Shown: positions 52,192 to 55,688 of the stretch, in pieces
How positions within the stretch are numbered: the stretch's first letter is position 1
Layout: each line of letters opens with the position of its first letter
Source: Vulcanimicrobiota bacterium
Lineage (GTDB): Bacteria; Vulcanimicrobiota; Vulcanimicrobiia; Vulcanimicrobiales; Vulcanimicrobiaceae
DNA length: 64,000 nucleotides
Reading direction: 5' to 3'
Assembly: GCA_013036105.1 (NCBI GenBank)
Contig: JAAXCX010000011.1
Location: 1-64,000, forward strand
Notes under the pieces: model-generated
The model's input: the letters and a program-made list of their open reading frames with translations, nothing else
Told to the model about the DNA's origin: nothing
Database searches by the model: none
Translations under genes and position numbers: made by a program

Positions 52192-52395
52192 CTAGGTCTG
52201 CTTCTGCCGGCGATCATCCTTTATCTCGACCACTTGACGCCCCGCGTACGTGCCGCACTTTTCGCAAACGAAGTGGGGGCGCTTGGGGGCATGGCACTGC
52301 GGACACTCTTCGGTTGTGACCCGGTTGAGCTTCCAATTTGCGGCGCGACGGCTGCGCGTCTTGCTGCGGGGAGTCTTCCATTTTAAGTTAGCCAC
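52192..52395 (-). CDS. rpmF: 50S ribosomal protein L32
   Basis: 67 residues from GTG 52395, preceded by GGAGAG. Starts MANLKWKTPRSKTRSRRA and carries two CxxC pairs (CPQC, CEKC) that can bind zinc. It overlaps the yceD stop by 8 nt, the classic yceD-rpmF pairing. Confidence 0.95.
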   Translation of the reverse strand: MANLKWKTPRSKTRSRRAANWKLNRVTTEECPQCHAPKRPHFVCEKCGTYAGRQVVEIKDDRRQKQT

Positions 52396-52858
52396 TTGTC
52401 TCTCCGTTACACTCGCACTCTTTACTGTTTCTGTTCTCTCCGCAACGCGGACAGATGCCTTTGCAATCCTCTTTGCACAGTAGCCCAATCGGTATCGCGC
52501 TGCAAATCAGTTGCGCGGCGAGATCGGCGACGTCGAGGCGGCCTCCCGTCAGAACGTTGCTTTCCTCGAACGGACCGTCTTGCAGGCTAGCTCCGGCTTC
52601 GACCTGCTCGTCGACCTTCACGTGCATGCTATCGGCCACCGTGCCCAAGCACCGGGCGCACTCCGTAAGGAGCCGCACGTCGATGGTGCCGTTGATGTCA
52701 AGCAGCTCGCCGGATGCTTGAAGTTCGAGATGGACGGCGGCGGCCTCCGGAAATCGTACCCCCTCGAACGGGGCTACCGGAACCCGGTCGTCCACCACGA
52801 GACCGCGGAGGTTGGCCGCCAGCAATCCAGTGACATCGATTTTGTGCGCAGAACCCAT
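52388..52858 (-). CDS. YceD / DUF177-family protein
   Basis: 156 residues from ATG 52858. The C-terminus has the Cys cluster CKEDCKGICPRCG and CECNG typical of YceD proteins; the central TECARCLG motif is also present. The family is involved in 23S rRNA accumulation or processing in plants and bacteria. It is the first gene of the fab/rps operon. A GC-rich inverted repeat (52869-52886) lies in its leader. Confidence 0.88.
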   Translation of the reverse strand: MGSAHKIDVTGLLAANLRGLVVDDRVPVAPFEGVRFPEAAAVHLELQASGELLDINGTIDVRLLTECARCLGTVADSMHVKVDEQVEAGASLQDGPFEESNVLTGGRLDVADLAAQLICSAIPIGLLCKEDCKGICPRCGENRNSKECECNGETSG

Positions 52859-52900
52859 AACATAGAGGAAGGCCCCGCCGGGGGCCTCCAAACTCGACCC

Positions 52901-52951
52901 ATTGTAGACCCGCCTCAAGGCCTTGTCAAACGCGTTGGTCGGCGGTATAGA
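52901..52951. promoter_or_regulatory. Two divergent promoters sharing one -35 region
   Basis: Minus strand: TTGACA (52924-52929), 17-bp spacer, TACAAT (52901-52906), near-perfect sigma70-type, for the yceD-rimM operon. Plus strand: TTGTCA (52923-52928), 17-bp spacer, TATAGA (52946-52951), for the transglycosylase gene at 52960. The two -35 boxes overlap almost completely, so both cannot be occupied at once. Confidence 0.75.
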
Positions 52952-52959
52952 CCTTCGCA

Positions 52960-53613
52960 ATGATCGAATCGAGCAACCCCGCCATTCGCGACCTGACCAG
53001 GCATGGCGTGGCGTACGCGCCCCAAATCGTCCGGGCGGCTGAAAAGCATGGCGTCAGCGCCCAGCTGCTAGCGGCTGTCGCCGCTCAAGAGACGGGCGGT
53101 CCCGGCTCGAATGCCGGCAGCAACATCGTCGGCGACGGTGGTCACGGCCGCGGCCTCTTTCAGATCGACGATCGCTGGCACGCCTTCGCGCGCGACCCTG
53201 CCGCAATGGATCCGCAGGCCAACGCCGACTACGCTGCCGGCATGATCGCCGGGCTGCTTCAGCGTTACGGCGGCAACGTTCGCAAAGCGCTTTCCGCATA
53301 CAATGCGGGCGATCCGAATGCGACCGGAACGGTTACGCCATGGCAAGACGGCCGGAGGCTCGGGTACGCAGATTCGGTTCTTCGCCACTACGCGCAAATC
53401 GCCGGAGCGCCGCCAGAGCTCGCCGCGGAAAGCACGTCCGAGCAGCAAAATGTGAACCAGCTGGCGACGTTCGCATCGTTGATGCCGCCACCGGCGCTAC
53501 CCTCCGGAAACGCACACTCATACCGGCAGCTCGGCGGCGGCGACAATGCCCATCCGGAATCCATCGTCGACGACGGCGATGACGATTCATCTAGAAACGA
53601 AGGTGTATTATGA
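52960..53613 (+). CDS. Lytic transglycosylase (SLT-like) without signal peptide
   Basis: 217 residues. SLT fold: catalytic Glu in AAVAAQETGG (about 45), GRGLFQIDDRW, and SAYNAGDPNA (about 112-121). The C-terminal about 80 residues are disordered and acidic. There is no signal peptide or membrane helix, so it needs a dedicated export route or cell lysis. ATG 52960 lies only 8-9 nt after the -10 box and has no ribosome-binding site, so the mRNA is probably leaderless. Its stop overlaps the next gene (ATGA). Confidence 0.85.
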   Translation: MIESSNPAIRDLTRHGVAYAPQIVRAAEKHGVSAQLLAAVAAQETGGPGSNAGSNIVGDGGHGRGLFQIDDRWHAFARDPAAMDPQANADYAAGMIAGLLQRYGGNVRKALSAYNAGDPNATGTVTPWQDGRRLGYADSVLRHYAQIAGAPPELAAESTSEQQNVNQLATFASLMPPPALPSGNAHSYRQLGGGDNAHPESIVDDGDDDSSRNEGVL

Positions 53614-53990
53614 GCTTCAATGTCATCGGCGGACTGCTCAACGCTGGCCTTGGCCTGCTGGAAAGCGGCGGTAATCCGCTCGCCGCGATCGGCATGGGAT
53701 TGGCCGGCGCAACCACCGGAGGCACGACGGCCGGGAACATTGCGGGCGCCGCCGGAAACGCCGGTCTGGGCGCGCTCAATGCGCAAGACGAAGCGTTTCA
53801 GCTCGCCATGTACGGCGAACAGATTCGCCATCAAGAGCAGATGCAAACGCAGTCCCAAGCGTTCGACGAAATCATGGACGAAAAATCAGAACAGATGCGC
53901 GAAGTGAATACGCTGCGCGACGTGCAGATGACGCAACGTAAAGCGGATAACCAAATCACCAAGAAATTTATCGAGTCGATTACCGAGTGA
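53610..53990 (+). CDS. Small Gly-rich protein with C-terminal coiled coil
   Basis: 126 residues. Residues 5-57 are Gly/Ala/Leu-rich with GxxxG spacing (glycine-zipper-like, possibly membrane-inserting). Residues 60-124 are polar and predicted helical. Residues 84-121 align ungapped with residues 37-74 of the next protein (18 of 38 identical). GAAGG-type ribosome-binding site at 7 nt. It could be a secreted translocator or filament component, or a holin-like partner; neither is shown. Overlaps its neighbours by 4 nt on both sides. Confidence 0.75.
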   Translation: MSFNVIGGLLNAGLGLLESGGNPLAAIGMGLAGATTGGTTAGNIAGAAGNAGLGALNAQDEAFQLAMYGEQIRHQEQMQTQSQAFDEIMDEKSEQMREVNTLRDVQMTQRKADNQITKKFIESITE

Positions 53991-54220
53991 CCGAACCGGT
54001 TCGCCAACAAGCGCCTCGACACGTTATAGCCCGCGGCTCTGCCAAGGCGGCCGCGGGACCGCAATCCGATGAGGCCGTCGATGCCGAACGCGAGGCGTTC
54101 GATTTTCGCTTGGCCGAGCGCGCCGAATTGCTGCGTGAATCCAATGCACTGCGCGACATGATGCTCGCCCAACTCAAAGCCGATGACGAGGCATTGAAAA
54201 AGTACATCGCGATGATATAA
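53987..54220 (+). CDS. Small helical protein paralogous to its upstream neighbour
   Basis: 77 residues from GTG 53987 (GTGA overlap). N-terminus is Arg/Ala-rich; residues 37-74 match the upstream protein (AFD, RExN, LRD, KAD, KK and I positions conserved), but it lacks the Gly-rich part. It may be a chaperone-like or regulatory partner that binds the shared coil. Its 3' end carries the tRNA-Ile promoter. Confidence 0.72.
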   Translation: MTEPVRQQAPRHVIARGSAKAAAGPQSDEAVDAEREAFDFRLAERAELLRESNALRDMMLAQLKADDEALKKYIAMI

Positions 54221-54233: not shown

Positions 54234-54310
54234 GGGCCATTAGCTCAGTTGGTTAGAGCGCATGCTTGATAAGCATGAGGTCCCTGGTTCGAGACCAGGA
54301 TGGCCCACCA
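54234..54310 (+). tRNA. tRNA-Ile (GAT anticodon)
   Basis: Acceptor stem GGGCCAT/ATGGCCC, discriminator A and encoded CCA. The anticodon loop TTGATAA lies in CATGC/GCATG (anticodon GAT), with a GGTTCGAGACC T-loop region. It is not in an rRNA operon here. Confidence 0.97.
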
Positions 54311-55450: not shown

Positions 55451-55526
55451 CGATTAAGACTCCTACGTTTGATTATCGCACCGCGGGCAAGACCTGTTAA
55501 GGGCCGGGCCGAAATTCGCGCCGCCT

Positions 55527-55599
55527 GGGGATGTAGCTCAGCTGGTAGAGCGCCTGCTTTGCAAGCAGGATGTCAGGGGTTCGAGTCCCCTCATCTCCA
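55527..55599 (+). tRNA. tRNA-Ala (TGC anticodon)
   Basis: Acceptor GGGGATG/CATCTCC, anticodon loop TTTGCAA in CCTGC/GCAGG, and GGTTCGAGTCC T-loop. No CCA is encoded. Confidence 0.97.
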
Positions 55600-55612
55600 A
55601 AGTTTCGGGTCT

Positions 55613-55688
55613 GGGGGCATAGCTCAGTTGGTAGAGCACTTGCATGGCATGCAAGGGGTCAGGAGTTCAAGTCTCCTTGCCTCCACCA
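55613..55688 (+). tRNA. tRNA-Ala (GGC anticodon)
   Basis: Acceptor GGGGGCA/TGCCTCC, anticodon loop ATGGCAT in CTTGC/GCAAG (anticodon GGC), and encoded CCA. It lies 13 nt after the other tRNA-Ala. Confidence 0.96.

Follow-up and report, generated by a model that had tools for sequence, protein, structure and literature searches.

The integrity of three overlapping genes in a bacterium of the Vulcanimicrobiaceae, which encode a peptidoglycan-cleaving enzyme (LTG) and two small proteins (S1 and S2), depends across related genomes on the integrity of a flagellar-type T3SS that lacks flagellin and is encoded on another contig. The trio is real, constrained and, as far as the tools used show, previously unrecognised, and it is likely to be a Sec-independent, T3SS-associated module. 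The more specific proposal, to which a probability of roughly 55% is assigned, is that the trio serves a class-specific, flagellin-less, flagellar-type T3SS as a component encoded apart from its locus, with S1 and S2 as exported subunits and LTG as a co-exported cutting enzyme. The class that keeps this T3SS consists of soil bacteria that are abundant and for the most part uncultured, and the co-decay described below names three genes as its candidate part or cargo.

Gene architecture and protein products

The window, which is the whole stretch of 64,000 nucleotides analysed, carries the trio on its forward strand. LTG (52960..53613, +) encodes an SLT/goose-lysozyme-type (GH23-like) enzyme of 217 aa with a Pro-rich C-terminal tail; S1 (53610..53990, +), the core component, encodes 126 aa with a Gly-rich N-terminus followed by one long helix; and S2 (53987..54220, +), which has a GTG start, encodes a 77-aa paralogue of the C-terminal helix of S1. 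The original prediction of three open reading frames joined by overlaps of the translational-coupling type is borne out at these positions, the overlaps being ATGA at 53610 (LTG/S1) and GTGA at 53987 (S1/S2). Directly downstream, outside the module, is the neighbouring gene of tRNA-Ile(GAT) (54234..54310, +), shortly after which two adjacent tRNA-Ala genes (TGC and GGC) occupy positions 55526-55688. On the other side, a DUF177-like protein (52388..52960, -; coordinates of the listed ORF, the true start probably being further downstream in the gene) is the divergent neighbour of rpmF-fabH-fabD-fabG-acpP and serves as a marker of the locus, whose position is conserved; these neighbours were named by eye.

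Profile, motifs and predicted fold together assign LTG to the SLT-type (GH23-like) peptidoglycan-cleaving enzymes. It scores 39.3 bits against PF01464 (SLT) in Pfam, where the cut-off is 21.3; 21 orthologues show no variation at the catalytic-type Glu44 or in the FQID and YN-G motifs, in agreement with the intact SLT active site noticed originally; and in fold comparison its AlphaFold model resembles goose-type lysozymes and Slt. The absence of an export signal, also noticed originally, was confirmed: the stop-to-stop frame is 220 codons long and only three codons precede the ATG, so no hidden signal peptide is possible without a frameshift, and a signal peptide was found in 0 of 44 orthologue loci. 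LTG reaches 22.4 bits with the IagB model, far under its cut-off of 208, and its best PHROG is phrog_342, an internal virion protein with an endolysin domain (E 2e-11).

The paralogy of the small proteins had been proposed from a 38-residue segment with 18 identities, and the ungapped alignment of S1 with S2 is now extended to 49 residues with 20 identities (E 6e-12). The Smith-Waterman score of the pair is 101, compared to 26.6 +/- 5.3 for shuffles (n = 2000, maximum 67), and profile-profile comparison gives a probability of 98.95%; by these alignments S1 and S2 are true paralogues. The shared helical segment occupies residues 76-124 of S1 (53835..53981, +), where conservation runs almost to the C-terminus, and residues 29-77 of S2 (54071..54217, +), where it ends at the C-terminus. 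Invariant residues are F85, E94, R97 and D113 in the S1 alignment and F38, E47, R50 and K64 in the S2 alignment. The AlphaFold model of S1 (pLDDT 60) is a single long helix, residues 41-125, of low confidence. The Gly-zipper-like N-terminus that had been ascribed to one of the small proteins is visible in S1, and two S1 relatives weakly match PF13488. The highest KD19 values are 1.08 for S1 and 0.23 for S2, by which no segment of either protein resembles a holin-like membrane span, and the trio has no match to a holin or spanin family.

Homology of S1 and S2 to needle, translocon or FliE proteins of T3SS was sought with Pfam, hmmsearch of PDB sequences and hhalign, and nothing significant was found. 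Neither protein matches the T3SS needle family PF09392 in Pfam; the translocon family PF05802 (SctB2) reaches 14 bits compared to a cut-off of 26.5, the best member having E 0.018; and comparison of FliE with the C-terminal helix of S1/S2 gives hhalign probabilities of 0.09-2.3%. A likeness of the S1 C-terminus to needle proteins, seen by eye, is unsupported by the profile searches and stays a lead. PF24072 (T7_gp14) weakly matches five of 39 S1 members (best E 0.0031), the S1 of the window itself giving no match; phrog_4415 matches nine S1 members (best E 1.9e-5); and tblastn of S1 against 50,697 phage records returned nothing. The searches made here thus place S1 and S2 in no known family, as the original prediction had supposed, and the profile searches proposed with it gave no clear homology to phage or housekeeping proteins.

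Distribution, inheritance and interruption of the genes

A search of genome contigs found the relatives of S1 mostly in MAGs of Candidatus Eremiobacterota. Of the 148 genomes of the phylum, 96 have S1, and every one of these belongs to one of three families (f1, f2 and f3) of a single class, and profile search found no convincing copy outside this class. The locus adjoins DUF177-rpmF-fabH-fabD-fabG-acpP in f1 and f2, and in f3 S1 stands alone, near the prfA and hemK genes. The original prediction had named, as an outcome that would count against it, a trio that never co-occurs in related genomes; the neighbourhood survey found that it does co-occur, and the order LTG-S1-S2 is retained through most of f1. 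LTG is absent from the trio locus in G061, G067, G089, G142, G040 and G034 and throughout f2 and f3, and because it is missing in several lineages that have S1, S1 is the core and LTG an accessory of f1. The lineages without LTG at the locus have generic SLT matches only, some of them near the T3SS locus. Genus g4 has an additional ORF, placed between LTG and S1 (L084 8573-8956, L085 6392-6775, L087 9527-9835), whose product is like the Pro-rich C-terminal tail of LTG on its own; this stand-alone form suggests that the tail is a functional module, serving as a docking or export signal. In G055, S2 is followed after ~1.4 kb by another S2-like copy (L061 9340-9582 and 10766-11221).

Pairwise dN/dS is ~0.1 for the trio and 0.02-0.08 for S1, values that indicate purifying selection on all three genes. 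Taken with the conserved DUF177-rpmF-fabH neighbourhood, the dN/dS of ~0.1 indicates that the trio is vertically inherited in place across the family. A single uninterrupted ORF holds both LTG and S1 in G062, G070 and G124 of genus g17 and in G117 of g31, and these fusions point to physical cooperation of the two proteins. Most absences of S1 from T3SS-bearing genomes are assembly gaps, with DUF177 also missing or located at a contig edge; simple profiling of presence and absence is therefore misleading, and the integrity of the genes is informative.

The S1 gene has been entered repeatedly by mobile elements at its K-x-D-D codons or nearby. The homologous point in the window is codons K111-N114 (53940..53951, +), where the host copy is empty. 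In G107, S1 is cut after QRKA by ~6.8 kb with a serine recombinase at the right end and a tyrosine-recombinase-like ORF at the left; in G082, S1 is split by an element with a serine recombinase fused to a stretch of S1; and in G084 and G147, S1 is cut at the same junction codons. In both G107 and G082, the ORF of a large serine recombinase ends in S1 sequence. The integration-site loci are L082 (9072-15883), L087-L089, L084, L085 and L098. A single viral contig of IMG/VR has at its end a copy of S1 whose C-terminus is altered, with the junction nearby, and this copy looks like a host attachment site.

Decay of the trio with a flagellin-less T3SS

The T3SS of the host is encoded on contig C1 at 105.7-119.5 kb, upstream of secD, and the trio on contig C11. 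The original statement that no neighbour explains export holds for the window but is incomplete, the genome having a T3SS on another contig. The cluster comprises FlgC, FliE, FliF, FliH, FliI, an SLT gene, an FlgG-like gene, two FliM/N, FliP, FliQ, FliR, FlhB and FlhA (the FlgC and FlgG labels denote weak or by-eye similarity), with a FliG_M segment carried by FliF, and it also embeds an aspartyl-protease-like gene and metF (G000 C1; L011 17700-20000, L010 1-11488). The host genome has a single FlhA gene and no flagellin match, and none of the phylum's genomes reaches the cut-off for the needle family PF09392. In the FlhA tree, the copies of f1, f2 and f3 form one clade (100/100) apart from the true flagellar and other types; outside the class, only other FlhA types were found and S1 is absent. 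At class level, the range of S1 coincides with that of the class-specific T3SS, which by itself is weak evidence of association. Several phylum genomes outside the class have 5-9 FlhA-family matches each (G003, G009, G013, G017, G018, G027, G029, G033, G039, G045, G049 and G051), an unusually large number of export systems, some of which may be fragments. In G008, a genome of one contig, the trio and the T3SS are both present and there is no flagellin match, and the cultured Vulcanimicrobium alpinus WC8-2 (3.50 Mbp) is described as having no flagellin gene, no flagella having been seen in it. The open-access literature, covered incompletely and mostly at the level of titles and abstracts, yielded no account of a T3SS from this phylum. 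In the relatives examined, the trio is never located near the T3SS locus.

The T3SS is cleanly gone, with its flanks joined, in G026, G076, G080 and G107, and the deletion scars of G026, G076 and G080 differ from one another. It is shrunken to pseudogenes in G046; it has lost FlgC to FliP, with FlhB and FlhA broken, in G084; it has frameshifts in FliF, FlgG, FliM and FlhB in G066; and in G148 it lacks FliH together with the N-terminal part of FliI. An apparent loss in G144 was rejected, the contig end still carrying the FlhA terminus. The trio is broken in six of the seven T3SS-damaged relatives, G080 being left out of the count with its trio region unassembled: LTG has a stop at residue W73 (TGG to TAG) in G076, S1 is split by the inserted element in G107, remnants only are left in G046, S1 is truncated and S2 was not found in G084, LTG is truncated and S1 gone in G066, and a deletion lies inside S1 in G148. 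Defects of a single base may be errors of the MAGs, and contamination of the G148 bin is 8%. The seventh, G026, has all three genes open, with S1 bearing L101P (Leu to Pro) at a near-invariant helix column. Among 21 relatives with an intact T3SS the trio is broken in one, G082, by the recombinase element, the T3SS of G082 being intact as far as the contig reaches; the trio is intact in all 20 genomes in which the T3SS genes were read and found intact, except that LTG is missing in G034.

For the verified set (7 damaged and 21 intact T3SS), Fisher's test gives p 1.2e-4, in which two case pairs come from a shared genus, where losses are only in part independent, and in which the T3SS of G066, G084 and G148 was inspected because the trio was broken, the trio-intact controls being inspected in the same way. 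For a wider set of 75 genomes, an approximate count in which FlhA only was checked in the other trio-intact genomes, p is 5.4e-5 with six doubtful genomes counted against the claim; these six (G077, G094, G110, G130, G143 and G145) are incomplete, are without this FlhA type and have S1 open. The DUF177 neighbour is open in G107, G084, G066 and G046 despite their broken trios. Raised pairwise dN/dS after loss of the T3SS is not visible in G026 or G076.

Proposed role and comparison with known systems

In the proposed role as a T3SS component, S1 and S2 would be small, mainly helical proteins exported through the T3SS without a Sec signal, and may form needle, tip or translocon-like subunits located at the rod or past it, a placement suggested because the T3SS locus itself has no recognisable needle or filament protein. 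LTG would be exported with S1, either alongside it or physically attached as seen in the natural fusions, and would open the peptidoglycan at points where the assembly encounters or passes through a cell wall; given an enzyme that has no Sec signal and small helical partners, the T3SS is the most economical export route. The original reading of the trio as an exported filament or translocator set of a secretion machine is supported by the co-decay with a flagellin-less T3SS, though the trio is unlinked to its locus; export itself, the polymerisation of S1 and S2 and the site of action of LTG are what we infer. A bolder version can be put forward only tentatively: that a class of Eremiobacterota has inherited from its ancestor an undescribed T3SS without flagellin, whose missing outer part (needle, filament or translocon) is made of S1 and S2, and that these two bring a wall hydrolase along, such that one exported assembly both crosses and cuts peptidoglycan. 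Against the T3SS-component reading are the separation of the trio from the T3SS locus wherever both were seen, the presence of an SLT gene in that locus, the absence of LTG from several T3SS-bearing genomes, so that LTG is not required, the three open genes of G026 without a T3SS, the retained T3SS of G082 with S1 interrupted, the open S1 of the six incomplete FlhA-less genomes, and the lack of homology of S1 and S2 to FliE or PF09392.

The rival explanations, in falling order, are shared lifestyle loss, an effector with its carrier, origin from a phage ejectosome and a lysis cassette. If the trio has an envelope function that does not involve the T3SS, and the same lifestyle change made both dispensable, then the two loci need no physical linkage, and the trio genes of G026, still open after T3SS loss, and the pairwise dN/dS of G026 and G076, not visibly raised, are accommodated; but this explanation is unlikely, as the trio is broken in six of seven T3SS-damaged genomes while DUF177 is open where checked, the genome of G107 is large (4.0 Mb), so that general genome reduction is no explanation, and an enzyme without a Sec signal needs some export route. 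The same co-decay evidence applies if LTG is an effector delivered by the T3SS against the wall of a neighbour or prey, with S1 and S2 as carrier or chaperones and not as structural proteins. LTG is accessory and absent in several T3SS-bearing lineages, as effectors would be, and S1 can be fused to it, but the occurrence of S1 without LTG in f2, f3 and parts of f1 implies a role of S1 beyond carrying LTG, and no immunity-like gene was recognised beside the trio; we consider a delivered effector doubtful as well.

A domesticated phage ejection apparatus, in which S1 would correspond to T7 gp14 and LTG to the SLT domain of gp16 as a pore and wall cutter, is very improbable. The phrog_342 match of LTG, the weak matches of S1 members to PF24072 and phrog_4415 and the S1 copy on one viral contig are what it would explain, but the SLT match is a generic one, the matches of S1 lie close to noise for helices rich in Gly, Ala and Gln, the tblastn search of phage records was empty, and the viral-contig copy, at the contig end with its altered C-terminus, resembles an attachment site. 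Least credible of all is the cellular holin-endolysin-like lysis cassette that had originally been offered as the other candidate. A muralytic enzyme without a signal peptide does adjoin a small protein with a Gly-rich N-terminus, but the small proteins have no membrane-span-like segment (maximum KD19 1.08) and no holin or spanin match, the enzyme gene comes first in order, LTG is dispensable, being missing where S1 and S2 are kept, and can be fused to S1, and purifying selection and vertical inheritance extend family-wide.

Since the needle, translocon, FliE and IagB families all lie beyond the matches obtained, the claim for the trio as a T3SS component is that it works like known systems, not that it is a member of one. 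The T7-type gp14/gp16 proteins and the trio both combine a Gly-rich helical protein with an SLT domain, with weak profile similarity, but the trio is bacterial, vertically inherited and under selection, and is tied to the presence of the T3SS. SctF and SctI are small paired helical proteins with a conserved helix near the extreme C-terminus, and 77 and 126 aa are within their size range. S1 and S2 are likewise small, paired and helical with a conserved helix near the C-terminus, but unlike SctF and SctI they have no PF09392 match and no FliE homology, and one long low-confidence AlphaFold helix is predicted instead of a hairpin. FlgJ, which is both the flagellar rod cap and a muramidase, is a second functional parallel and travels through the flagellar T3SS itself. 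FlgJ and the LTG-S1 pair are alike in joining a wall-cutting domain to a helical partner without a Sec signal; unlike in FlgJ, the partner is a different protein located C-terminal to the enzyme, the gene is unlinked to rod genes, and Pfam gives no rod-cap family match in the trio. The T3SS-dedicated lytic transglycosylases EtgA, IagB and IpgF are Sec-exported. Like LTG, each is an SLT enzyme of small size associated with a T3SS, whereas LTG has no Sec signal, is encoded outside the T3SS locus and scores below the IagB cut-off. Binding of EtgA to the inner-rod protein EscI, and dependence of its activity on EscI, have been reported (PMC9250224). This pairing of EtgA with EscI is comparable to the location of LTG next to S1 or its fusion with S1, and is the closest functional parallel to the trio.
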